Below are positions 311 to 17,093 of a stretch of 20,322 nucleotides of DNA, one piece after another (positions within the stretch are counted from its first letter, which is position 1; every line of letters begins with the position of its first letter). The translations under genes were made by a program, and so were the position numbers. This stretch comes from a virus, in IMG/VR virus record IMGVR_UViG_3300035670_001479, positions 1 to 20,322 of that record. The stretch is one strand, 5' to 3'. The notes under the pieces are model-generated. The model had not been told where the DNA came from and made no database searches. It saw only the letters and a list, made by a program, of their open reading frames with translations.

Positions 311-2081
311 AATCTTCCTCTGCCCCTGTCGCTGGGGTCATCATGTGTTCCTGTACCTGCTGTGCAGCAACATTCTGTAGCTGGGCGGCTTCTGCCCTCT
401 CACTGATACGCACATACGGGCGTACAGGGATAGCTACATCAGCACCGCTTGCAGTAACCAATGCCCTTGCGTAGTCAATGCTGCTGACATGGAGCAGTGC
501 TTCTTGGTCAAAGCTCTGTGCAAGGCGGGTAATTGTCTGTACCAGTTTGGCTCGTTCTGCGTAGTGACGCGCACCCATAGGCACTAACCGGCCATTGGTT
601 TTCAGGTCATCACGGGTAACTTCGATGAACAGGCTCACCCCATCCTCATCAATAGTCTTTACAGTATCGGCAACATCCATATCCACACGGGATACTTCAA
701 TCTCTGCATTCAGCAGGTGTTCAAGGAACTCCTCCTCGAACTGCGTAATCTTGTGCTGGAAGAACTTGCCTGCGGCATTGGTAAGGGTTTCCACCTCAAA
801 GGCGGTTTTCTCACCGGCAGTACGGATACCCATTGCTTCCCTTGGTGCACCTGCGTACAGCTCCATACGGTTCTCAAGCTGCTGGATTTGGAAGTCTGCT
901 TGCAGTACGGTTGTATCAGGATGCAGGTATGCTACACGGCCACTACCGGCTTCTGGAATGTAGTAGTGTGTAGATGCCCCATGACGAACTACGTCCACAT
1001 CACCTTCGATGATGATGTCGGGGTCAAGCATATCGTCAAAGGCATCTGCACGGGCATTCTCAAGGTGGTTAATGCGGTACTGCATACCCACCAAGTTATC
1101 CAGCGGCCCCATTGCCCAAAGGTTGTCTGGACGCTTGCGCCAGCCACAATGGTAAATGTGGGGGCGACCTGTCCAAGTGTTCAACGGCTGGTTGCGGATT
1201 ACATAGCTGCGGTCTACTACAGTAATCACATGGTTAAGGTAGGTCGTCTGGGTATTGCGGTCGTAGATGTCCCCATAGAACTCAAGGATTTCTACATACC
1301 CACTTTCAAGGTACTGGTCAATGTTCCCAAAACCATCGAACTCAAGCTGGGTAGACTTTGCAATATCAGCAGTGTTGTCCTTGATGCCATGGTACTTGTT
1401 GCGGACGCTCTTGATTTCGGCCAAGATGGCTTCTTCATACTTCAGGGACGGGTTTTCAAGTATGTCCCGTTCAATGTCTGCAATAGCCTTGATTGTGCGT
1501 ACAATCTTGGGGCTATCGTAGAAACTCTTGGCAAGCGGATTGAATACGATGTCATACGGGCTAATGCGGTCTACCTGTGGGCCAGCATAGACAACCTCAT
1601 CGGCACCTGTCATCAGGTTCTTTTTCTTCTCGGTAATGTAGCTTACCTGTGCGAAGCAGTTGCCTGTAAGTACCCAATCTGAAAGAAGCTGGCTTACCGT
1701 CTGGCGGAACCTGCGGTTACGATGCTTCGCCTTCAGGTAGCTCTCAATCTTGTCCCGTTTGGCCTTGCTTACTTCGTCCGCAGACTCGCCATAGAAGCTG
1801 AACCAGCCTTCATTTGGCATCAGGGCATCCAAGTAGTTTGCTTCCAGCAAATCCTTTACTTGGGTAATCTTCGGGATATGGGTGCTGTTACTCCAAGGTA
1901 ACGCATCATTACTTGTTTCCCGTGTGCTGGTAGCGTATACCTGTTGGGTAACTTCCTTTACACGCTCGGTATGGGGTGCCTTGGCATCACGCCACTTCAT
2001 GTAGAGCGCAGCAATGTCCTCTGCGACCACATCCTTGTTCGCAAACAGGTCATCTACTGAAATGGATTCCGATGCACTCAT
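300..2081 (-). CDS. Portal protein (head-tail connector)
   Basis: The 593-residue product fits the large portal family of podoviruses, slightly longer than the roughly 535 residues of T7 gp8. Portals form a dodecameric ring at one capsid vertex through which DNA is packaged and ejected. Recognisable portal-type segments are MGPLDNLVGMQYRINHLENA at about residues 322-342, followed by an acidic DP-rich stretch, and AGAPREAMGIRTAGEKTAFE at about 409-428, which precedes a long helix (FFQHKITQFEEEFLEHLLNAE) like the portal stem and wing helices. The C terminus is acidic. The ATG overlaps the terminase stop (ATGA) and has GGAGAGG upstream. The pairing with large terminase makes the call firm although the family is divergent. 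Confidence 0.92.
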   Translation of the reverse strand: MSASESISVDDLFANKDVVAEDIAALYMKWRDAKAPHTERVKEVTQQVYATSTRETSNDALPWSNSTHIPKITQVKDLLEANYLDALMPNEGWFSFYGESADEVSKAKRDKIESYLKAKHRNRRFRQTVSQLLSDWVLTGNCFAQVSYITEKKKNLMTGADEVVYAGPQVDRISPYDIVFNPLAKSFYDSPKIVRTIKAIADIERDILENPSLKYEEAILAEIKSVRNKYHGIKDNTADIAKSTQLEFDGFGNIDQYLESGYVEILEFYGDIYDRNTQTTYLNHVITVVDRSYVIRNQPLNTWTGRPHIYHCGWRKRPDNLWAMGPLDNLVGMQYRINHLENARADAFDDMLDPDIIIEGDVDVVRHGASTHYYIPEAGSGRVAYLHPDTTVLQADFQIQQLENRMELYAGAPREAMGIRTAGEKTAFEVETLTNAAGKFFQHKITQFEEEFLEHLLNAEIEVSRVDMDVADTVKTIDEDGVSLFIEVTRDDLKTNGRLVPMGARHYAERAKLVQTITRLAQSFDQEALLHVSSIDYARALVTASGADVAIPVRPYVRISERAEAAQLQNVAAQQVQEHMMTPATGAEEDFED

Positions 2082-3649
2082 CTACCTCTCCGGCCACCAA
2101 AGCGTGGGTGGTATACAATGTTCTGTGTTGCGTCTGTAAAAGACTCGCGCTTTACTGATGGCGGCTTTGATACAGAGATTGCAGTTGTAAGGGCATCCAG
2201 CAAGTCATCATGTGGTGGACGCTTCAATGTAATTTCTTCCTCAAGGATGCTGAACAAGCCTCCTTTGCCATGCCACACGGTTTTCATTTCGTACCGTGGG
2301 TAGGTAATCATGGCGTGTTTTTCTTCCTTCTTGCCTTCGTGTCGTGTTGCTGCACGCCCTTCTACTACCAAGCTATCGCCGTTCTGGCGAATGTAGTTCT
2401 TCAGTTCCTTCTCAATGAAGTGGCCTGCCGCGTTGGTTTCGATGTAAATCTTCCTGAAACCCCATTTGCGATACAGGGACAACACCTTCTCGTAATACAC
2501 ATCAAACTTGTCTGTCTGGAATCTTTCCAAGTCCAAGACATAAATCATACCGTCTGAATCAAGGCCAATCACAGCAATGGCGGTATAGTCACGGCGCAAC
2601 TTACTGTTGGTAACGTCTGTCCACGCAACGTCCATTGCAGCAAAGATAGAGAGCTTGCGGCCATTGTAGTGCCAACCGCCACCTTCATCCTTCAGGTACT
2701 TCGCGTTGTAATACTGGAAGTTCTTGCGGTCTACTGTCTCACTGCCGGGGTCGTTAGGGTCGTTGTAATACTGTGCGTAGAACTGCGCCTGTTGCCCCAT
2801 ACTGAAATACTGTGCGCGAATGCGGGCAAGTATCTTGGGGTCAAAACCGTACCACTTGCTTGTTACTGGTGACAGCTCCCTCGGCCACAGGAATACGCCT
2901 GTGCCATCACCAATATCCTCTGTCTTGTATTCGAGGATGTCCCACAAAGGTTCTTCACCAATGTGCTGGCCTTCCTCGTCAAACACCGGCTCCATTGCTT
3001 CAGCAAACATATTGTATAGGTCTGCTGGGTGGTAGCGGGTTCCTACTGCCTTGGTATATGCACCGGGGTTCTTGATTGATGCAAACTGTGCAATAGCCTG
3101 TGCTACTTCCTGTCGGCCTATCTCTGTGTAGGCGTTCTTGTCGGTAACAACGTCATCCAGAACCAAGTGGCTACAGTGCAGGCCAATCGCGTTACTCTTT
3201 ACCGTCTTGACGATAATGGTGTAGTCACGAATACCCTCTGCCTTACGCTTAGGGTGGTCTACATTAAATGCCCATGCGCTCCACTTGTCGCGCTTGGCTT
3301 CTTCCTTGTTAATCATTTCCGGCCAAAGCAACTGGTAGCGGTCGCTAAGGAACATGGCCTTGATTGCGCTTACCTGAATGGTAGCCAGTTCTTCCATTGC
3401 GGACAGATATACCATCGTGGTAGTCGGGTCACGGGTAATCTGCCATACTGCCCATACTGCAATGCAGTGGGACTTCAAGTGTGCGCGTGGCAACAGCATC
3501 AACTGGTGGTCGCTACAGTCTTGGTCGCTCATCCACTTGAATACTTTTTCGTGGACTTCGCCGTAGCAGTAGTGCGGGTTAATGTACTTCGCAAACTCGT
3601 ATAGGTCGTTCTCGTAGAGTTCGCGTAGCTGCTGCCGTTTCTCAGACAT
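2078..3649 (-). CDS. Terminase large subunit (packaging ATPase and nuclease)
   Basis: This 523-residue packaging motor has both expected domains. The N-terminal ATPase carries a Walker A-like loop LLPRAHLKSH (residues 52-61), lacking the classical GKS/T as in many phage terminases, and a Walker B strand HLVLDD (161-166). The C-terminal RNase H-like nuclease has the first catalytic aspartate in FAAMDVAW (D340), then RRDYTAIAVIG (352-362), the second acidic site in IYIETNAAG (E404) and the last in PHDDLLDAL (D481, D482, D485). It cuts concatemeric DNA and pumps it through the portal. The start overlaps the stop of the preceding gene (TAATG) and its own stop overlaps the portal start, a tight packaging operon. 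Confidence 0.95.
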   Translation of the reverse strand: MSEKRQQLRELYENDLYEFAKYINPHYCYGEVHEKVFKWMSDQDCSDHQLMLLPRAHLKSHCIAVWAVWQITRDPTTTMVYLSAMEELATIQVSAIKAMFLSDRYQLLWPEMINKEEAKRDKWSAWAFNVDHPKRKAEGIRDYTIIVKTVKSNAIGLHCSHLVLDDVVTDKNAYTEIGRQEVAQAIAQFASIKNPGAYTKAVGTRYHPADLYNMFAEAMEPVFDEEGQHIGEEPLWDILEYKTEDIGDGTGVFLWPRELSPVTSKWYGFDPKILARIRAQYFSMGQQAQFYAQYYNDPNDPGSETVDRKNFQYYNAKYLKDEGGGWHYNGRKLSIFAAMDVAWTDVTNSKLRRDYTAIAVIGLDSDGMIYVLDLERFQTDKFDVYYEKVLSLYRKWGFRKIYIETNAAGHFIEKELKNYIRQNGDSLVVEGRAATRHEGKKEEKHAMITYPRYEMKTVWHGKGGLFSILEEEITLKRPPHDDLLDALTTAISVSKPPSVKRESFTDATQNIVYHPRFGGRRGR

Positions 3650-6819: not shown

Positions 6820-7032
6820 AATGCTTCTTTGTGTTTATATGGTTTAACTGTGTGTTTATTAGCGGCGGTATTCGCCGCAGATTTACGGTTATGTCAATGA
6901 CAGCTATACGAAATTAGCGGCATTTAAACCGGCAGTCCTGCTTTGGGTATCATCATTCCTGATTTGGGGCTTTATCTAGAAATACTGGTGTGTTTTTCTA
7001 GCACAATCCAAGCCTTATATGGCATGAAAGCC
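6820..7032. other. Non-coding spacer with short hairpins upstream of the HNH gene
   Basis: No credible gene is seen here. It holds a GC hairpin GCGGCG-GTATT-CGCCGC (6862-6878), an 11-base palindrome TGTCAATGACA (6892-6902), the 9-base repeat ATTAGCGGC near 6859 and 6915, and an inverted repeat CTAGAAA/TTTCTAG (6976-7001). None is followed by a T run in either direction, so they are not classical terminators. They may process or shield the 5' end of the late leftward transcript. Confidence 0.4.
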
Positions 7033-7112
7033 AGTAATCGCGCCACTTCCAGCCATATCGCGCCATATTAGGGTCAGGCACTTTCATCAATCTGGAACTA
7101 CCAAGGATTACT
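7033..7112 (-). ncRNA. Folding unit 1 of a tandem structured array
   Basis: This 80-base unit is closed by a perfect seven-base stem (AGTAATC 7033-7039 with GATTACT 7106-7112). Inside it a six-base stem (TTCCAG 7047-7052 with CTGGAA 7092-7097) encloses a small ATAT/ATAT hairpin (7055-7068). The closing stem abuts the first AATAGGTT linker exactly. The strand is assumed to be leftward because the neighbouring tRNAs are leftward. It has no tRNA T-loop or anticodon arm that I can recognise. Confidence 0.45.
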
Positions 7113-7120
7113 AATAGGTT

Positions 7121-7218
7121 CGCGGTTTTCTCGTGGTTTGCTGCTTGCAACAGTGTCCGGAATGCCAAGCAATGCTCACACGAAGGCACTTGACCCGCTA
7201 AGGTCTATGCGAGCCGCG
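7121..7218 (-). ncRNA. Folding unit 2 of a tandem structured array
   Basis: This 98-base unit is closed by a nine-pair stem with a four-T bulge: CGCGG (7121-7125) plus CTCG (7130-7133) pairs with CGAG (7210-7213) plus CCGCG (7214-7218). Internal hairpins are weaker (TTGC/GCAA near 7138-7149, GACC/GGTC at 7192-7205). It lies exactly between two AATAGGTT linkers. No protein or known RNA family is recognised. Confidence 0.5.
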
Positions 7219-7226
7219 AATAGGTT

Positions 7227-7322
7227 TGCCTGTCGGGTGGCAATGTCCCGAATGCCTGCCACATAACTACGGACAGGCTGTCCGTTGCAGCAGACTCCCG
7301 AAGGTCTGCCCAAAGTCAGGCA
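7227..7322 (-). ncRNA. Folding unit 3: cloverleaf with three perfect hairpins
   Basis: This is the clearest unit. The closing stem is TGCCTG (7227-7232) with CAGGCA (7317-7322). Inside are three consecutive perfect hairpins: GTGGCA/TGCCAC (7237-7262), ACGGACA/TGTCCGT (7269-7285) and GCAGAC/GTCTGC (7290-7309). The result is a four-way cloverleaf 96 bases long. It lacks the GTTCGA T-loop and conserved D-loop bases of a tRNA, so it is a tRNA-like shape rather than a tRNA gene. Confidence 0.6.
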
Positions 7323-7332
7323 AATAAGGTTT

Positions 7333-7438
7333 GCGACAGGCAGCGCCTAGAACACTGCCCCGTGCGGGTTGCCAAGGTTGTGGGCTTCTGCCACGACCTC
7401 CACAGGCTATGTGCCTGCGCGTGCACCCGCGGTGTCGC
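7333..7438 (-). ncRNA. Folding unit 4: multi-branched GC-rich unit
   Basis: This 106-base unit is closed by GCGACA (7333-7338) with TGTCGC (7433-7438). Inside are GGCAGCG/CACTGCC with a seven-base loop (7339-7359, one pair is a wobble only in the leftward RNA), AGGT.GTGG/CCAC.ACCT with a seven-base loop (7375-7399, one pair is a wobble only in the rightward RNA), CAGGC/GCCTG (7403-7417) and CGCG/CGCG (7418-7431). The two wobbles disagree about which strand is the RNA. Confidence 0.55.
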
Positions 7439-7447
7439 AATAGGTTT

Positions 7448-7532
7448 GGAAGTATTTACTTCCTTATACCCCCTTAGACCCGCTGGAAGATACTTTTGTT
7501 CCCCAAACCTGTAAAAATAATTATTACGGTTT
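7448..7532. other. Two perfect hairpins between the array and tRNA-Asn
   Basis: GGAAGT-ATTT-ACTTCC (7448-7463) starts on the base after the last linker. A second hairpin pairs AAACC (7505-7509) and GTAA (7511-7514) with TTAC (7524-7527) and GGTTT (7528-7532), leaving one bulged T. Neither has a terminator-type T run. Confidence 0.5.
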
Positions 7533-7551
7533 GTTAATGTTAATGGGAAGG

Positions 7552-7623
7552 CTGGCAAGGTAGGGGTCGAACCTACGACCGGGTGATTAACAGTCACCTG
7601 CTCTACCACTGAGCTACTTGCCA
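7552..7623 (-). tRNA. tRNA-Asn (anticodon GUU)
   Basis: All arms are present on the minus strand: acceptor TGGCAAG/CTTGCCA, D arm GCTC/GAGC, anticodon stem GGTGA/TCACC with loop CTGTTAA (anticodon GTT), and T stem GTAGG/CCTAC with loop TTCGACC. CCA is not encoded (GCCT follows the acceptor), so it would have to be added by the host enzyme. It lies four bases downstream of tRNA-Thr and would be processed from the same transcript. It probably supports AAC/AAT codons during late protein synthesis. Confidence 0.95.
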
Positions 7624-7627
7624 TTAT

Positions 7628-7703
7628 TGGTGCCGGAAGCAGGACTCGAACCCACCGCCTACTGATTACAAATCAGTTGCTCTACCAGATGAGCTATTCC
7701 GGC
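7628..7703 (-). tRNA. tRNA-Thr (anticodon UGU)
   Basis: A complete cloverleaf is present on the minus strand: acceptor GCCGGAA/TTCCGGC, D arm GCTC/GAGC, anticodon stem ACTGA/TCAGT with loop TTTGTAA (anticodon TGT), and T loop TTCGAGT on a stem with two wobble pairs. Discriminator A is followed by an encoded CCA, unlike its neighbour, so the two tRNAs may have different origins. It reads ACA codons. Confidence 0.96.
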
Positions 7704-7714
7704 AATATGCCTGT

Positions 7715-8122
7715 GGCTTCACAGGAAGCCCTGTGTTCAATTTTAAGGGTACTGGTAGTACCTAACCATACCTTTTGCCTAAAACGCCCTGTAGGGGCTT
7801 ACAGACGGTTCTCCTTGGTTTGTATTAAACCGGCCAGCAAAAGCAGGATACTGGCCGGTTACAGTATAGTCTAGTTGTTTATGTATATTACATAGATATA
7901 TATAATCTATATATCTAATTATATATTAAATATATACATAAGGCAAGCAGGGATGCTTGCCCATGATGTTCGGCTGCATGGAAGCAGCCATCACAGTATG
8001 TATATTATTACTGCTGGCCCCCAAAGGCCAGCCATAGTATACTACTTGAAACTACCAACCTAGACGGTTGGCAGTTCCTTCCCTTCAGGCAGTCGGGTAT
8101 CCATACCCTCCAGTGATTGCCT
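7715..8122. other. Dense run of compact hairpins, no gene
   Basis: No ORF is credible here. Perfect or near-perfect stems follow one another: GGCTTC/GAAGCC (7715-7730), GGTACT/AGTACC (7748-7762), CTGTA/TACAG (7789-7804), AACCGGCCAG/CTGGCCGGTT (7828-7860), GGCAAGCA/TGCTTGCC with a GGGA loop (7942-7961), GGCTGC/GCAGCC (7972-7989), GCTGGCC/GGCCAGC (8013-8032) and AACT.CCAACC/GGTTGG.AGTT (8050-8076). A two-part stem at 8087-8122 pairs AGGCAGTC GGGTA with TACCC and GATTGCCT. This may be one long structured RNA or DNA hairpins. No T run marks any as a terminator. Confidence 0.55.
7863..7941. other. AT-rich palindromic zone (possible DNA unwinding element)
   Basis: An outer inverted repeat TTATGTATAT (7879-7888) / ATATACATAA (7932-7941) surrounds a perfect nine-pair hairpin AGATATATA/TATATATCT (7894-7916). 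From 7879 to 7941 only three bases are not A or T. Such easily melted zones accompany replication origins, and this one lies about 700 bases from four DnaA boxes. It could equally be a nuclease-sensitive hairpin in RNA. Confidence 0.5.
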
Positions 8123-8225
8123 TCAGCTTCACTTCCTTTCGCTCAGGCTTCCTACCTTCGCTAATCACATAATGCTCCCTTTGACCACAATATTCCCCAA
8201 AAGTTCCCCTGTCAGTATCAACAAT

Positions 8226-8257
8226 CCGACGAACGGTCGATATTTCCGATAAACGGT
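8226..8257 (+). repeat. Two iteron-like direct repeats
   Basis: CCGACGAACGGT (8226-8237) and CCGATAAACGGT (8246-8257) match at 10 of 12 bases and start exactly 20 bases apart, about two helical turns. They lie between the hairpin region and the parS-like and DnaA sites. Two-site spacing of this sort suits a dimeric DNA-binding protein, but no initiator gene is in the window. Confidence 0.4.
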
Positions 8258-8364
8258 AGGTAAGGCTGAATACGGGATTTTATTTTAGATATATTTTGGT
8301 TGTGGTATAGAAGAGCAGCCTACCCCCCATACCCCCCTGCCCTAGGGGTGGCCAGCACCTTCAC

Positions 8365-8393
8365 TTGAGAATGATTCTCATTCGCATTATATA
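8365..8393 (+). promoter_or_regulatory. Rightward promoter overlapped by a Fur-box-like palindrome
   Basis: TTGAGA (8365-8370) and TATATA (8388-8393) are 17 bases apart, a sigma-70 arrangement. The palindrome GAGAAT-G-ATTCTC (8367-8379), extended as TGAGAATGATTCTCATT (8366-8382), covers the -35 box and spacer. It agrees with 14 of 19 positions of the Fur consensus. No gene starts for 500 bases downstream, so any transcript would have a long leader or be non-coding. Confidence 0.45.
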
Positions 8394-8523
8394 CCCACAC
8401 TTTCCGCATGGTTCGCATAATAGGGAGTTATGTTAAATGCTGATTACACTTGACCATCACATCAGGTAGTCAAGCAAGGTTGTCGTCCTCGTATACTGTA
8501 GTATACCGATGCACTGGAGTATA

Positions 8524-8539
8524 TGTTCCACGTGAAACA
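8524..8539. promoter_or_regulatory. parS-like site (ParB binding, bacterial chromosome type)
   Basis: TGTTCCACGTGAAACA differs at one position from the widespread chromosomal parS palindrome TGTTTCACGTGAAACA, and the C variant is itself used in natural parS sites of some bacteria. ParB binds such sites and spreads along DNA for segregation. No ParA or ParB gene is visible here, so the host proteins would be the partners. Only one copy is seen in the window. Confidence 0.75.
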
Positions 8540-8636
8540 ATGCCGTGAGGCTTATAACCCAATCATCACCCCCACCAATTCCCGGGTGTTCCTGTCTGGT
8601 ATTAACTTACCCCAATGTAACTTATGTATCAATTAG

Positions 8637-8690
8637 TTATCCACAAGTTATACACAATCATTCCTTGCCTGTGGATAAGTCTGTGGATAA
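8637..8690. promoter_or_regulatory. Cluster of four DnaA boxes (possible replication origin)
   Basis: TTATCCACA (8637-8645) and TTATACACA (8648-8656) point one way; TGTGGATAA (8670-8678) and TGTGGATAA (8682-8690) point the other. All four match TTATNCACA perfectly. Same-direction boxes start 11-12 bases apart, close to a helical turn, and the pairs face each other. The cluster is about 140 bases upstream of the early promoter. It could be an origin or a sink or switch for host DnaA. Confidence 0.8.
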
Positions 8691-8827
8691 GTCAGCGTAT
8701 GCCCTTTTTTGGGGTTGAGCCCATACCTTGGCATGGGTTGCTTGTGCGCGTTCCTGTGCGTCTGGTGTGTTGTGTCTTTTGGTTATAACAATACCTTTCC
8801 TTATGTATTCTTATTCTAATAAAGTGC
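8691..8827. other. Non-coding stretch between DnaA boxes and the early promoter
   Basis: It contains a hairpin CCCAT.CC/GG.ATGGG (about 8719-8736) preceded by a run of six T in the plus strand, followed by a G/T-rich then AT-rich stretch. No gene is supported. Confidence 0.35.
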
Positions 8828-8855
8828 TTGCATCCTGTGACAGGTGCGCTATAGT
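8828..8855 (+). promoter_or_regulatory. Rightward early promoter with a palindrome in its spacer
   Basis: TTGCAT (8828-8833) and TATAGT (8850-8855) are 16 bases apart and lie 33 bases before the first gene of the rightward block. The spacer holds a perfect 11-base palindrome CCTGT-G-ACAGG (8834-8844), placed where a bound repressor would block RNA polymerase. Host sigma-70 polymerase is the likely user. Confidence 0.65.
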
Positions 8856-8888
8856 GACCATATCGAAACAGCAAAAGAGGATTTAAAC

Positions 8889-9128
8889 ATGGACTATATC
8901 AAAGAGTTACAAGAAGAAAGCAAGGGCCAATTCATGCAACCCGAAATAGTGCGCGGAAGGCATTTTTTAATAGAGGAGATTGTACAAAATCTGCCGCTAG
9001 AATACCGGCCGGAAGGATATTATTGCAGGCTTTCCGCCGGTAGCTATCTTGATTGCACAGACTGGAACGGGCCTTTTGAAACCATAGAGGATGCTGCAAG
9101 GCATTTGTTAGAAACCTATTTTAACTAA
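8889..9128 (+). CDS. First rightward gene, hypothetical early protein
   Basis: The 79-residue product starts at the ATG with AGAGG eight bases upstream; the frame is open further upstream but that part overlaps the promoter. It has an acidic helical N terminus (MDYIKELQEESKGQF), then YRPEGYYCRLSAGSYLDCTDWNGPFETIEDA, which resembles short phage proteins that fold as one small alpha/beta unit. No family is recognised with certainty. As the first gene behind the early promoter it is a candidate host-takeover or anti-defence factor. That is inference from position alone. Confidence 0.75.
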   Translation: MDYIKELQEESKGQFMQPEIVRGRHFLIEEIVQNLPLEYRPEGYYCRLSAGSYLDCTDWNGPFETIEDAARHLLETYFN

Positions 9129-9157: not shown

Positions 9158-9493
9158 ATGAAAAAGACTATTGACAGCGTTAGTGAGTTCCGGGACGAGT
9201 TCCATCGTATGGGACGAGGGAGCCAGTTCAGTTATGACGGCTTGGCGGTACTCTTTGAGCATATCGAAGATTACGAGCAGGATACTGGCGAGGAATGGGA
9301 GTTAGATGTAATCGCCCTGTGTTGTGAGTTCACCGAATATAGCAGCGCGTTGGAAGCCTGCGAGGGTTATTCCTTTGAGCCTGACGAGGAACAAGATGAG
9401 GAGGAGCAACAGGAATCCGCGTTAGAATGGCTGGAAGGAGAAACAATGGTGTTGCGCGTGCATCCTTCGGGCGTGATTATCCAAAACTTTTAA
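9158..9493 (+). CDS. Small very acidic early protein
   Basis: This 111-residue protein is strongly acidic, with a run of Glu/Asp/Gln between residues 72 and 87 (EPDEEQDEEEQQ). Its N-terminal part, SEFRDEFHRMGRGSQFSYDGLAVLFEHIEDYEQDTGEEWELDVIALCCEFTEY, resembles a small phage protein type that is common but uncharacterised. Acidic early proteins sometimes mimic DNA to block host nucleases, which is possible here but unproven. A purine-rich stretch (GGGGGGCCGGAAAA) precedes the ATG. It is the second gene of the early operon, 29 bases after the first. Confidence 0.75.
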   Translation: MKKTIDSVSEFRDEFHRMGRGSQFSYDGLAVLFEHIEDYEQDTGEEWELDVIALCCEFTEYSSALEACEGYSFEPDEEQDEEEQQESALEWLEGETMVLRVHPSGVIIQNF

Positions 9494-9974: not shown

Positions 9975-10171
9975 GATGCGCTGCCTGTAATGCCCGATTG
10001 GTGGAGTATACAAAACAAGACTTATGCGCTGAATGTGCAGGGATTGTACGGGATACGGTACGGAACAGGTACAATCCTGTTGAGCCTGTAAATGTATGGG
10101 AGCTGGTGGAATGCATCAACATAAACAACGCAACTGGAATAGGCTGCCTTACGAAGAAAGGCGAAGGCTAG
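9971..10171 (+). CDS. Small zinc-finger-like protein ahead of the primase
   Basis: The 66-residue product has two CxxC pairs near its start (CAAC at residues 3-6 and CAEC at 20-23), spaced as in a small treble-clef or zinc-ribbon finger. A less ordered C terminus follows. The start is the ATG with GGGGA upstream. Its last 61 bases overlap the primase gene in another frame, an unusually long overlap, so the two may be coupled. It could be an auxiliary DNA-binding protein of the primase, but that is inferred only from position. Confidence 0.65.
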   Translation: MRCAACNARLVEYTKQDLCAECAGIVRDTVRNRYNPVEPVNVWELVECININNATGIGCLTKKGEG

Positions 10172-11019
10172 CGGAAAGCCTGACCCTGTCCGACGGGGAG
10201 CAGGTAAAGTTAAACCATGACCAATGCCCGGCTGGTACGGATACGAAAAGCAGGCTATATGTAAAGAGGGAAGGCGATGCAATCCTATTTTATTGTCATC
10301 ATTGCAATCAATCTGGCCGGTACAATCTTGCTGGTTGGGCTGGTAACATGGCAGGGTATCTTGATAACATGGTTGCAGGAACAGGCGGGCATCCTGTACG
10401 AGAACGACAAGGCGCTGGCCGAGGCCCACAATGGGGTGATAGGCTACCTACGGATGCAGTACGAAGATTGAATGAGTGGCCTCTCATGGCCTCTCAGTGG
10501 GTGCGACAATACGGTATAACGGAAAAAGAGGTACAGGACAATGGAATCTTCTACAGTGACATTGCAGGCGGTGTGTGTTTTCCTGTCTATCGTGATGGGG
10601 GTTTGCACGGCGTGGTGGTACGAAAGCACTTACGCCCGGTGGGTGGAGTATGGCGGGGTGCGAAATATCTCACTCGCCAGTATGATATGGCCCGCCCTAT
10701 GGTGTACAAAAGGCTATCTGCTCATGATGTGCTTGTTATTACCGAGGATATTCTGAGCGCCATTAAAATGGGTAGGTACGCGGACACCATTGCCCTACTT
10801 ACAGCACATGATAAGGATGAGGTGGTAAGCCTTTGTAAAGGCTATGAAAAGGTAATCATCTATCTGGATAATGACAATGCCCATGTGCGGGACGCACAGG
10901 AACGGTTGAAGGCGCGAATAGGTTTGGTGAACAGGAATGTAGTAGTATATCGGGGGGATAAAGACCCCAAGGAATGCAGTGACGATGAGCTGTTACAAAT
11001 TGTTAATGGACAGTATTGA
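10111..11019 (+). CDS. DNA primase (zinc finger plus TOPRIM domain)
   Basis: The 302-residue protein makes RNA primers for the replication fork. The N-terminal zinc-binding part has H36-x2-C39 and C62-x2-C65 (LNHDQCPAG and FYCHHCNQSG). The catalytic TOPRIM part shows VLVITEDILSAIKMG (207-221, the acidic TED site) and KVIIYLDNDNAH (247-258, the DxD site). Unlike T7 gp4 it has no fused helicase; the helicase is the next large gene. The chosen ATG has GGAG eight bases upstream; an in-frame ATG 15 bases earlier is possible. Its first 61 bases overlap the zinc-finger-like gene, and two short ORFs are open inside it in another frame. Confidence 0.93.
   Translation: MHQHKQRNWNRLPYEERRRLAESLTLSDGEQVKLNHDQCPAGTDTKSRLYVKREGDAILFYCHHCNQSGRYNLAGWAGNMAGYLDNMVAGTGGHPVRERQGAGRGPQWGDRLPTDAVRRLNEWPLMASQWVRQYGITEKEVQDNGIFYSDIAGGVCFPVYRDGGLHGVVVRKHLRPVGGVWRGAKYLTRQYDMARPMVYKRLSAHDVLVITEDILSAIKMGRYADTIALLTAHDKDEVVSLCKGYEKVIIYLDNDNAHVRDAQERLKARIGLVNRNVVVYRGDKDPKECSDDELLQIVNGQY
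10277..10471 (+). CDS. Possible overprinted membrane protein inside the primase gene
   Basis: A different frame within the primase gene encodes a 64-residue protein with a good ribosome site (GAGGGAAGGCG before ATG). It has a hydrophobic span (FIVIIAINLAGTILLVGLV, residues 5-23) and a polar helical tail (QEQAGILYENDKALAEAHNG). T7 has small genes (4.1, 4.2) nested in its primase-helicase gene, so overprinting here has a precedent. It may still be a chance frame. Confidence 0.35.
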   Translation: MQSYFIVIIAINLAGTILLVGLVTWQGILITWLQEQAGILYENDKALAEAHNGVIGYLRMQYED

Positions 11020-11103: not shown

Positions 11104-11116
11104 CTAGGAGATGTTC

Positions 11117-12382
11117 ATGCTTGATATAGCATTGCTACAGTTAATCACGGATAACGAAGGATGGCACAGGTATGCAGACCTTATCCGTCCAGCCACGCAA
11201 GAGGCAGAGTTAATCCTGCGTGATATGCACGAGTATCGTGCCAAGGTAGGTGACTTTAACTGGAGCCAGTTCGGTACATGGTTCCTACAGGTTAAGCACC
11301 CTACACTGAAGGCAGACAAGAGGGACATCTACCAGCAGGTATTTGCACAGCTTGCCAACCCTGCACCAGTAAGCGATGGCTACATTGAAACCATGCTGGA
11401 TAGCATGAATGAACGCTACTATGCCAACGAAATCAGGAAGGCGTGCGAGGCAGTATGCGATGGCAGGCATGGTGCAAGTATCGAGGACATTAACGAGCTA
11501 CTGCAACAGGCAAATGATGACCGTAGATACCTTCATGGGGATGACAAGCATATTGTTATAGCAAGCCTAGACGAGATTGTAGAGGCAATGGACACAGGAC
11601 ATGGTCTTACATGGCGACTACATGAGTTTAACCGTAGCCTAGGCCCACTGCGTAAGGGGGATATGGTACTGCTGTCAGCACGTCCAGAGGCAGGCAAGAC
11701 CACAATGCTTGCAAGTGAAGTCAGCAACTTTGCAGAACAGTGTAAAGGCCATGCAGACTTCAAAGACCGCCCTATTGTCTGGTTCAACAACGAGGAGGAA
11801 GGCAAGAAGGTCAAGATGCGTATCATGCAGGCAGCATTGGGTTGTACCACCAAGCGCATCATGAATGACCCACAAGGGGCAATGCGTAAGTACGAGGAGA
11901 TTGTAGGGGACAAGGACAGGATTATCGTATACGATAACAAGCGTATGCACTACAAGGAGATTGAGAAGTTCCTTGCCAAGCATAACCCATGTGTTATTGT
12001 GTACGACCAGTTGCGCAAGGTAGCAGGTTTCGAGAAGGAGGGCAGTGAGGTACAACGCCTGCAACAGTTGTATGGCAAACACGCACGGGCAATGGCAGCA
12101 GAGTATGGCCCTGTCCTTACAGTACACCAAGCCCGTGGTGATGCTGAAGGCGTACTGTGGGTTAATGGCAACCAGTTAGAGGGCTGCCAGACCGAGGTAC
12201 AGGGAGAGCTGGATGTGCAGATTATGATGGGCAGGAGCTTTGAGGCAGGCTATGAGAATGTGCGTGGATTAAATATTGTTAAGAATAAGCTGTTAGGTGG
12301 AAAAGATACCGAAGAAGCCTTGCGTCATACGAAGTTTGAGGTTATCATTAGACCAGAGATAGCAAGATTTGTAAGTCCATAA
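11117..12382 (+). CDS. Replicative DNA helicase, DnaB/RecA-like
   Basis: This 421-residue hexameric-type helicase unwinds DNA ahead of the polymerase. The C-terminal RecA-like motor shows KGDMVLLSARPEAGKTTM with the Walker A loop at about residues 187-196, then IVWFNNEEEGKKVKMRIMQAAL typical of DnaB motif H1a, Walker B CVIVYDQL near 291-298, LTVHQARG (sensor motif) and a closing RGLNIVKNKLLGG. The N-terminal 150 residues are helical, as in the primase-contacting domain of DnaB. The start at 11117 is preferred over the ATG six bases earlier because AGGAG lies six bases before it rather than touching it. It follows the separate primase gene. Confidence 0.94.
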   Translation: MLDIALLQLITDNEGWHRYADLIRPATQEAELILRDMHEYRAKVGDFNWSQFGTWFLQVKHPTLKADKRDIYQQVFAQLANPAPVSDGYIETMLDSMNERYYANEIRKACEAVCDGRHGASIEDINELLQQANDDRRYLHGDDKHIVIASLDEIVEAMDTGHGLTWRLHEFNRSLGPLRKGDMVLLSARPEAGKTTMLASEVSNFAEQCKGHADFKDRPIVWFNNEEEGKKVKMRIMQAALGCTTKRIMNDPQGAMRKYEEIVGDKDRIIVYDNKRMHYKEIEKFLAKHNPCVIVYDQLRKVAGFEKEGSEVQRLQQLYGKHARAMAAEYGPVLTVHQARGDAEGVLWVNGNQLEGCQTEVQGELDVQIMMGRSFEAGYENVRGLNIVKNKLLGGKDTEEALRHTKFEVIIRPEIARFVSP

Positions 12383-14582: not shown

Positions 14583-14747
14583 ATGTTCTGGGGTTCAGTA
14601 AAGCTGCACGACGGCAACCGCATAGAGTGGGTGCCAAACTACCTGCTGGAGATGACCCCGGAGCAGCAGTTCAAGAGCAATCTTGACGCCGGACACTTCG
14701 ATGGTTACGAGTTAGTGGGGCGTTATAAGAGGCCGCAGGAGGCATAA
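14583..14747 (+). CDS. 54-residue hypothetical protein before the polymerase
   Basis: The start is the ATG with AAGGAGAG six bases upstream; the longer open frame runs through the attC-like element and is not protein-like there. The product MFWGSVKLHDGNRIEWVPNY followed by LLEMTPEQQFKSNLDAGHFDGYELVGRYKRPQ looks like a small folded alpha/beta protein. Its stop overlaps the polymerase start (TAATG), so translation of the two is coupled. Function is not known. Confidence 0.7.
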   Translation: MFWGSVKLHDGNRIEWVPNYLLEMTPEQQFKSNLDAGHFDGYELVGRYKRPQEA

Positions 14748-15940
14748 TGAAGTACATTGTGTTTGATACCGAAACCACTATCCGCAATCGTGGTGACGAG
14801 GCAGTAGGAGACAACCAAGGCAGCCCTTACCACCACGCCAACCGTGCTTGGTTATTCGGCTGGAAGTCTGACCAATGCAAGCGTGTTAATGTTGTCCGCC
14901 ATAAAGACGGCTTTGACAAGGCATGGTTTCGTGATGCAAGCTGGTTAGTAGGGCAGAACATACGCTTCGACTTGGCTTACCTGCGTAAGCACTACCCCAT
15001 TGAGTACGAGCTGTGGCTGCAAGGTGGAGGCAGGATTTGGGATACGCAGACAGTTGAATACCTGATTACAAGCCAGCAGACCAAGATGGTTAGCTTGGAT
15101 AAGCTGGCAGAGAAGTACGGTGGCACACTGAAGGACGACCGTGTTAAGGAATACTGGCAGGCAGGTATTGATACACCTGATATTCCTGATGAAGTGCTTG
15201 TACCGTATCTTGAGCAGGATGTTCTGAATACTGAAAAGGTATTCCTTGCCCAAGCCAAGCAGGTGCGCGAGTTAGGTATGACAAAGCTGGTACTTAGCCA
15301 GATGGATGCAATGCTTGCCACAGCAGAGATGCAGTGGAACGGGATGCGCTTTGACAAGGAGAAGGCACTGGCAGAAGCAAGTATCCTACGGGATACAGCG
15401 GCAGGCTTACGCGCAAAGCTGACAGAAGCTATGACCGTATATCACCCACACATCCAAGACCCAAACCCCATGAGCAACGAGCAGATTAGCCTAGTGCTGT
15501 TTGGGGGTGTAGTGTTCATTGATGAGCAGCTACCAGTGCTGGAGAATGGTGAGCCAGTACGGTACAAGTCCGGGGCAAGGAAGGATGAGATTAAGACCAA
15601 AAAGCAGGCAGTGCCTTATGGTGCAGCAGGATTTGGTATCAAGACCAAGGAAGAAAACGCTACCACCAAGAAAGGTATTTATCAGGTAGGCGACAACATC
15701 CTGAACGACATTATCAAGGCCCACAAGGGCAAGCCTGTAGCAGAGTTCTGTATGGATGTGCTACAGCTACGGGCAATCGAGAAGGACTTGACTACCTACT
15801 TCATTGGCCTGTCTGACCTTACTTGGCATGATGGTTACATTCGTGGTGAACATAATCATTGTGTGACTGTCACAGGTAGGTTGAGTAGCAGCAAGCCCAA
15901 CATGATGAACATATCAAACAAGGTTAGAGAAAATGCCTAG
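14747..15940 (+). CDS. DNA polymerase, N-terminal part: 3'-5' exonuclease and thumb
   Basis: The 397-residue half of a family A polymerase has the full proofreading domain: Exo I VFDTETT (D7, E9), Exo II GQNIRFDLAYL (N71, D75) and Exo III YLEQDVLNT (Y154, D158). The thumb-type region follows, up to TGRLSSSKPNMMNI (about residues 376-389), the template-contacting motif. It then stops after SNKVRENA, before motif A. An intact enzyme would continue into the catalytic palm, which lies about 280 bases downstream as a separate gene. The stop overlaps the start of the helix-turn-helix ORF (ATGCCTAG). Two-piece polymerases are known in other phages and can reassemble as two polypeptides. Confidence 0.93.
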   Translation: MKYIVFDTETTIRNRGDEAVGDNQGSPYHHANRAWLFGWKSDQCKRVNVVRHKDGFDKAWFRDASWLVGQNIRFDLAYLRKHYPIEYELWLQGGGRIWDTQTVEYLITSQQTKMVSLDKLAEKYGGTLKDDRVKEYWQAGIDTPDIPDEVLVPYLEQDVLNTEKVFLAQAKQVRELGMTKLVLSQMDAMLATAEMQWNGMRFDKEKALAEASILRDTAAGLRAKLTEAMTVYHPHIQDPNPMSNEQISLVLFGGVVFIDEQLPVLENGEPVRYKSGARKDEIKTKKQAVPYGAAGFGIKTKEENATTKKGIYQVGDNILNDIIKAHKGKPVAEFCMDVLQLRAIEKDLTTYFIGLSDLTWHDGYIRGEHNHCVTVTGRLSSSKPNMMNISNKVRENA

Positions 15941-16148
15941 AAAAGTAATAGTAGACTACCATACAATACAAGACTTGTATGAGAACACATCATTGACGCA
16001 GGCAGACATAGCAAAGAAAGTTGGCTGTAGGGCTAGTGTTGTCTCTAACTGGGCATCAAAAAGATACTCTTCATCAGCAAGGAAGGCTAGAAAAGTGGAG
16101 GTGGTTTGTCTTGCTGTCCGACTACAAGAAACTTGTACGACAGTATGA
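15933..16148 (+). CDS. Helix-turn-helix protein inside the split polymerase
   Basis: The 71-residue ORF starts inside the stop region of the first polymerase part. Residues 10-45 form a clear helix-turn-helix: IQDLYENTSLTQADIAKKVG, then CRASVVSNWASKRY as the recognition helix. After ARKARKVEVV the residues stop looking protein-like, and a protein-like continuation is open in the +1 frame (see the next entry). The true product may therefore be longer in an intact form. DNA-binding domains of this type are found in the specificity parts of homing endonucleases and in small repressors; no nuclease motif is present. Confidence 0.65.
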   Translation: MPRKVIVDYHTIQDLYENTSLTQADIAKKVGCRASVVSNWASKRYSSSARKARKVEVVCLAVRLQETCTTV

Positions 16149-16221
16149 GGAATTATGTAGTGAATACGACTTGTTACACATGGAAGCAGAAGAACTCCGT
16201 ACAGAGTGTAAGGAGCATTGA
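16021..16221 (+). CDS. Second ORF of the polymerase insert, coiled-coil-like end
   Basis: In the +1 frame relative to the helix-turn-helix ORF, residues LSDYKKLVRQYEELCSEYDL and LHMEAEELRTECKEH form an amphipathic helix. It ends in TGATG, where the stop overlaps the start of the second polymerase part, so ribosomes must probably arrive there. The true start is unclear (TTG at 16021 or an internal start). It is either a separate small gene or the displaced C terminus of the helix-turn-helix protein after a frameshift. Confidence 0.4.
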   Translation: MAVGLVLSLTGHQKDTLHQQGRLEKWRWFVLLSDYKKLVRQYEELCSEYDLLHMEAEELRTECKEH

Positions 16222-17093
16222 TGAACATTAAGGAATGTTTCACAAGCCGCTTTGAAGGGGGATACCTGATTGAAGCCGACTTCAGCCAGCTAGAAGTCGT
16301 TGGCCTTGCGATCCTTACGGGCGACAAGCAGCTAATGGAGGACATCAGGGAAGGTAGGGACATGCACTGCATCAGTGCCAGCTTCCTTAGCGGGGAGAAG
16401 TATGAGGACATCTACACCAAGTACAAAGCAGGTGATGCAAAATATGCAACACTTCGCAAGAGTGCCAAGCAGCCTAGCTTCCAGCTTCAGTATGGTAGTG
16501 GTGCAAAGAGTATGTCTGACTCATGCAAGCTGCCCCTAAAGACCTGTCAGGAGTTTATAGACAACTACTACACCCGCTACAGTGGGGTTAAGCAGTGGCA
16601 GGAGGATATTGCCAATACCGTAGAGAACGGGCGCAAGCCTTCCGGTAGGCATACTAAAGGTGGCTTTCCTGCTGGCGAAAGCACGATTGTAACGGCAACA
16701 GGGCGTAGGTATACCTTCATGGAATACGATGCCCCCATGTTCATGCACCGTAAAGGGACTATGACCAGCTTCAGCCCTACGGAAATCAAGAATTATCCCG
16801 TACAGGGCTTCGCTACAGGGGACATAGTACCCCACATGCTGGGGGTAATCTATCGTGAGTTACTTGGTAGCCGCATCCACAAGGACTGCCTGATGGTCAA
16901 TACCATCCACGATAGCGTCCTGTTTGATTGTAAGGCAGAAGTACTTGCCGAAGCCTGTAAAATGATTTACACTATTATGTGTAACACCAGCGAGACTATT
17001 GCAGAGTTCTTTAATATCAATATACCCCTGCCTTTGAAGTGTAGTATTGAGGTTGGGTATACTTGGTATGAAATGGACAAGTATGTTATATAA
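16221..17093 (+). CDS. DNA polymerase, C-terminal part: catalytic palm and fingers
   Basis: The 290-residue half carries the polymerase active site of family A. Motif A is EADFSQLE (catalytic D20). Motif B on the O helix is RKSAKQPSFQLQYGSG with R79, K83, F87 and Y91 at the spacing of R754, K758, F762 and Y766 in E. coli Pol I. NYPVQGFATGD (191-201) is the Q-helix region, and motif C is NTIHDSVLFD (H230, D231), with Ser where most relatives have Glu. The start ATG has AAGGAG five bases upstream and overlaps the preceding stop. It must pair with the N-terminal part to give a working enzyme. The C terminus (DKYVI) is followed at once by the second cassette-like unit. Confidence 0.93.
   Translation: MNIKECFTSRFEGGYLIEADFSQLEVVGLAILTGDKQLMEDIREGRDMHCISASFLSGEKYEDIYTKYKAGDAKYATLRKSAKQPSFQLQYGSGAKSMSDSCKLPLKTCQEFIDNYYTRYSGVKQWQEDIANTVENGRKPSGRHTKGGFPAGESTIVTATGRRYTFMEYDAPMFMHRKGTMTSFSPTEIKNYPVQGFATGDIVPHMLGVIYRELLGSRIHKDCLMVNTIHDSVLFDCKAEVLAEACKMIYTIMCNTSETIAEFFNINIPLPLKCSIEVGYTWYEMDKYVI

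Follow-up and report, generated by a model that had tools for sequence, protein, structure and literature searches.

Four perfect DnaA boxes lie within 54 bp of non-coding DNA between the late and early operons of a podovirus, and they are very probably bound by the DnaA protein of the host. Our tentative preference is that this DnaA platform, with host IHF assisting, would act as an optional origin of replication whose use is linked to the early promoter. The window, that is, the whole stretch of DNA that was analyzed, is a 20,322-base IMG/VR record that is probably a fragment of a phage genome.

The fragment is related to the Zobellviridae and is of the Vibrio phage ICP2 type, as indicated by terminase and portal homology, a divergent early/late layout, and the order of the replication genes (primase, DnaB-like helicase, split PolA, and exonuclease). 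Its leftward late side encodes the portal, the terminase, a tail protein, an HNH protein, and two tRNAs, and its rightward early side includes the 5'-3' exonuclease. The divergent layout is shared by ICP2, where the non-coding junction spans 1.75 kb, and the split PolA of the window matches that of ICP2 at 41–43%. PolA is also split by a small HTH/HNH-like ORF in ICP2 and VP41s3, which resembles a homing-endonuclease insertion. The first-pass annotation had called the phage T7-like. This label is loose: the terminase and polymerase have their nearest matches in Zobellviridae/ICP2, and a T7-type RNA polymerase (PF00940) was found neither in the fragment nor in five Zobellviridae records, in a search that gave no match in the control genomes either. 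Transcription of this phage probably depends on host RNA polymerase. Features of the window are listed in the table.

Table. Features of the 20,322-base window that bear on the DnaA box cluster
Feature	Position	Strand	Description
Terminase large subunit	2078..3649	-	45–47% to Zobellviridae
Divergent junction, leftward late/rightward early genes	6820..8888		~2 kb, non-coding; carries tRNAs
tRNA-Asn and tRNA-Thr	7550-7703	-	Within the divergent junction
Perfect Fur-type 7-1-7 palindrome	8366..8380		TGAGAATGATTCTCA; 256 bp left of the cluster
AT-rich segment left of the boxes	8590..8640		Unstable (nearest-neighbor stability); candidate unwinding element
IHF consensus WATCAANNNNTTR	8627..8639	+	Here TATCAATTAGTTA; final TTA shared with box 1
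DnaA box 1	8637..8645	+	TTATCCACA, perfect consensus
DnaA box 2	8648..8656	+	TTATACACA, perfect consensus
DnaA box 3	8670..8678	-	TTATCCACA, perfect consensus
DnaA box 4	8682..8690	-	TTATCCACA, perfect consensus
AT-rich segment between cluster and early promoter	8775..8824		Candidate unwinding element (nearest-neighbor stability)
Putative sigma-70 early promoter	8828..8855	+	TTGCAT-16-TATAGT, read by eye; weak -35
First early ORF	8889..9128	+	79 aa; no family match
Second early gene	9158..9493	+	phrog_9974 type; 111 aa, acidic; used to anchor the test of relatives
DNA primase	10096..11019	+	Rightward early side
DnaB-like replicative helicase	11111..12382	+	Rightward early side
DNA polymerase A, two pieces	14747..17093 (14747-15940, 16218-17093)	+	HTH/HNH-like ORF between the pieces

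The perfect consensus TTATNCACA occurs four times in the window, always inside positions 8637-8690, and nowhere else in its 20,322 bases. Dinucleotide shuffles predicted 0.99 perfect boxes for the whole window, close to the earlier claim of fewer than one, and the chance that any one box is joined by three others within 53 bp is ~3e-9; the cluster noted in the first-pass annotation is thus far above chance. Boxes with at most one mismatch were at background (22 matches in the window versus 20.6 expected), so the DnaA signal consists of the cluster alone. The boxes are oriented ++-- with start-to-start distances of 11, 22, and 12 bp, which bears out the spacing of about one turn described for each pair, and the inner facing boxes (2 and 3) are two helical turns apart. 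There were no GATC sites near the cluster, a point of difference from E. coli oriC. Bacterial genomes seldom contain this four-box layout (five stretches in 257 Gb, three of them from Fictibacillus). The cluster was therefore not copied from a common type of host origin, and a generic host oriC layout was rejected.

A non-coding cluster of consensus DnaA boxes and an IHF consensus that adjoins or overlaps them are both found here, as in an oriC-type origin at the sequence level. The IHF consensus has two matches in the entire window. The left AT-rich segment falls within the least stable 0.5–2% of the window, and the right one is its second least stable 50-bp segment; AT-richness is common in intergenic DNA anyway, and the flanks showed neither a trio nor a 13-mer repeat. 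The putative early promoter starts 137 bp right of box 4 and is followed by an RBS-like sequence and the ORF at 8889. The early promoter proposed about 140 bases away is plausible, but it is weak and scored under the threshold of the promoter scan. On the other side of the cluster, the Fur-type palindrome is the only match with up to two mismatches in the window, and it overlaps a promoter-like TTGAGA...TATATA, read by eye.

Similar helically phased clusters were found by a three-box pattern in at least 120 viral contigs. Among the matches listed, 69 of 114 clusters were in non-coding DNA against a background that is 81% coding, and divergent junctions were preferred over convergent ones (24 versus 4), a preference that we count both for an origin and for a transcriptional role. 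The 64 cluster families among these matches have tandem boxes 11–12 bp apart and facing boxes 22–24 bp apart. These peaks were not imposed by the search, because the pattern permitted tandem distances of 10–14 bp and facing distances of 13–39 bp. An IHF consensus occurred within 150 bp of the cluster in 10 of the 64 families among the matches listed, with two expected. The composite of an IHF consensus and tandem boxes was present in 10 viral contigs, including L311; the same composite as in the window was seen in L114, L249, and L311. This repeated placement in many environmental phages that are unrelated to one another suggests that use of the host DnaA switch is common among phages. One phage contig of 129 kb, L124 (IMGVR_UViG_3300042505_000752), has 39 perfect DnaA boxes, of which many are packed into ~600 bp (~115300-115930).

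The perfect consensus, the phasing, the IHF site, and the recurrence lend good support to the earlier proposal that host DnaA is the intended binder, as does the absence of a DnaA-like HTH protein (PF08299) from the window and from the cluster-bearing phage records tested. A phage-encoded DnaA-like binder was rejected, since PF08299 was found only in MW202483, which had no cluster in the 33 kb covered. The protein in that record (L407:7083-7379, minus strand) has 98 aa and consists of the DnaA box-binding domain alone (Bac_DnaA_C), with relatives in a few fecal and spring phages.

Relatives were also collected without regard to boxes, as three sets of 80 viral contigs anchored by a homolog of the early gene at 9158-9493, by the helicase, or by the terminase. 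In the early-gene set, 67 of 97 perfect boxes were 0.5–2 kb upstream of the anchor with ~4 expected, and the reversed-pattern control gave seven in the same 112 kb of upstream bins; we count this enrichment for an origin. Fifteen of the 67 loci with 2 kb of upstream sequence had at least two boxes within 200 bp, compared with one in the control. The loci with clusters form three groups by single linkage of the surrounding DNA, so the number of loci exceeds that of independent events, and the Poisson value is overstated. Isolated phages with that early gene (from Nitrincola, Psychrobacter, and Microcystis) had no cluster.

The other two anchors rarely led to clusters. Two or more clustered boxes were found in only two of the 80 helicase-anchored contigs, L152 and L164. 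L164 is a near copy of the window layout, with a tail-fiber gene, five boxes, early genes, primase, helicase, polymerase, and exonuclease, and its replication module is of the same type, split polymerase included, which also counts for an origin. Among the 80 terminase-anchored contigs, clustered boxes were found only in L380. A separate search added L311, a Zobellviridae-type contig (terminase 42%) in which boxes and the IHF composite are just upstream of the late operon; we count this for an origin as well. Approximately 17 junctions of terminase relatives located by ORF direction had no box or one box each, and the cluster is absent in ICP2, PA11, VP41s3, GX1, and 468E53-1. No close relative (>80%) spanning the junction was found, nor were there DNA-level relatives of the junction in phage or plasmid collections. 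The first-pass annotation had named loss of the boxes in close relatives as evidence against its proposal, and the outcome is divided: most terminase relatives with a visible junction (~43–63% identity) lack the cluster, but L164 and L311 have it. The cluster is sporadic, or optional, within the phage's own family. The replication module does not require it, since ICP2, PA11, and most relatives do without and only two of 80 helicase loci have it.

In the origin reading, DnaA would fill the four phased boxes while IHF bends the DNA at box 1, and one of the two adjacent AT-rich segments (8590-8640 or 8775-8824) would open. The opened segment could then be used to load the phage primase, DnaB-like helicase, and PolA, and origin firing would be coupled to transcription from the early promoter ~140 bp away. 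DnaA binding, IHF binding, unwinding, and origin use are all inferred from the sequence. E. coli oriC likewise combines perfect boxes, IHF involvement, an AT-rich flank, and non-coding DNA; its boxes are spread over ~190 bp, however, compared with four in 54 bp here, and the phage has its own helicase, primase, and polymerase. The oriR of phage P1 is also phage-borne and has tandem DnaA boxes (an annotated DnaA site in the replication origin, 62891-62908), but it relies on phage RepA and iterons, serves upkeep of a plasmid prophage, and has a tandem spacing of 9 bp. No iterons or Rep protein were seen in the window. GC skew flips at the cluster, but it follows gene direction and also flips in ICP2, PA11, and VP41s3, which have no boxes. 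The skew is therefore not an independent line of evidence, and its use to prove an origin was rejected.

We prefer an origin over pure transcription control because the perfect boxes are numerous and phased, an IHF site is present, and AT-rich DNA flanks the cluster. A transcription hub stays close, nonetheless, because of the sporadic distribution of the cluster and the Fur-type operator, which fits transcription control at least equally and is counted against an origin. According to this alternative, which we consider a serious if somewhat doubtful possibility, DnaA, IHF, and a Fur-type regulator acting at 8366-8380 would tune early and/or leftward late promoters to host growth and iron state, and replication would start elsewhere. 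The end of the cluster 137 bp before the putative early promoter would suit such a role, as would the preference for divergent junctions. There is a precedent in lambda, where host DnaA binds close to promoters of the replication region and regulates them (PMC3985674), although the lambda sites are merely consensus-like and downstream of the promoter, unlike the four perfect phased boxes upstream in the window. Against a hub, phages differ in how far the cluster lies from the first early gene (~180–460 bp by ORF calls), many clusters have 5–14 perfect boxes, which is above what is usual for promoter control, and Fur-type sites are near just a handful of clusters.

The 350 bp around DnaA clusters showed a 15-fold enrichment of Fur-type sites with at most one mismatch (12 versus ~0.8 expected), with five of the 12 coming from one T5-like phage. 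There were 38 such sites in total, compared with a mean of 5.6 for shuffled palindromes. Ten of 11 Fur-type sites in the terminase-anchored relatives were 3–8 kb upstream of the terminase, which is the junction zone, and their recurrence at junctions of relatives without boxes also speaks for a hub. Zobellviridae-type relatives with Fur-type sites at the junction and no DnaA cluster were L345, L392, L377, and L347. These Fur-type patterns emerged post hoc and require independent confirmation; Fur itself may bind the palindromes.

A DnaA sink or nucleotide-state switch, which would lower or change host initiation activity in the manner of datA or DARS, is improbable. datA and DARS2, too, are defined by DnaA boxes next to an IHF site (PMC8682772). 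The core of E. coli DARS1 and DARS2 likewise has a convergent + - - triad with a 12-bp tandem spacing, and IHF acts in DARS2. The geometry of the window (+22-12-, and +11+22-) is nevertheless unlike that of DARS1/DARS2 (+14-12-): the facing spacing is 22 bp rather than 14 bp, the window has an extra + box, and read on the other strand the distances are 22 and 11 bp. Membership in DARS was rejected on these distances, and membership in datA was rejected because its perfect boxes are 162 bp apart. The host's own DnaA sites far outnumber four boxes on one incoming genome. Of the three roles that had been proposed, the sink is therefore the least supported; either initiator or early-promoter sensor may be the actual role. 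A few other viral contigs, which speak for a switch of this kind, have the exact E. coli DARS core geometry (L074:62-96, L078:1560-1594, L081:1374-1408, L087:2791-2825, and L115), and their triads are possible phage-borne DnaA-reactivating sequences.

Two further explanations are very unlikely. The first is a DNA-entry stop signal as proposed for T5, whose injection stop region has been described with DnaA boxes, repeats, and palindromes (PMC13250531). The T5-like phage HildyBeyeler (L310:8188-8742, 12024-12105) likewise has perfect DnaA boxes, including a 12-bp tandem pair, and five Fur-type palindromes in non-coding pre-early DNA by early genes. That region differs, however, in having boxes 12 and 61 bp apart, in two inverted copies. 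T5-like siphoviruses are known to enter in two steps, which is not known of the podovirus group considered here, and the ends of the ICP2 record are far from its junction. The second, a functionless remnant of origin DNA captured from a host or plasmid, would fit the sporadic distribution but is opposed by the recurrence of the same placement in unrelated phages, the intactness of all four boxes, and the rarity of the layout in bacterial genomes.

DnaA boxes in phages are already known from P1 oriR, lambda, T5, and the predicted origin of phage PseuGes_254. Searches of open-licence papers found no recurrent DnaA/IHF control region, sometimes with a Fur-type site, in lytic phages with their own replisome, nor any account of such clusters in podoviruses. 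It is conceivable, though on balance unlikely, that lytic phages with a full replisome of their own widely install, at the early/late junction, a DnaA/IHF hub that in some cases includes a Fur-type operator, and that host DnaA starts their replication, tying it to growth and iron state. We did not find the replication start established for ICP2-type and many environmental lytic phages, and a recurrent DnaA/IHF site names a testable host factor. Should this hold, the replication initiator of the host could gate phage replication, and DnaA, IHF, and perhaps Fur would be linked to phage timing. In metagenomic phages with unannotated genes, the site would then serve as a marker of early regions and probable origins.

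Limnohabitans phage DC31 and Curvibacter phage P26059A also have facing perfect intergenic boxes (five and two, respectively). They differ in being large phages (76 and 84 kb), a TCTTATATAAGA palindrome is present between the facing boxes, and the site is unannotated. Palindromes of this type between facing boxes were observed in L277, L282, L288, L296, L404 (DC31), and L405 (P26059A), which are very different genomes that include isolates on freshwater Limnohabitans and Curvibacter.

The phrog_9974 protein encoded at 9158-9493 is conserved, and its fold was predicted with a pLDDT of 92. A role as a DnaA partner was rejected, since the predicted fold gave only weak matches. The best of these was ArdA (Z 3.8), an antirestriction DNA mimic, and we regard an early anti-restriction function for this gene as a lead, not as a result.
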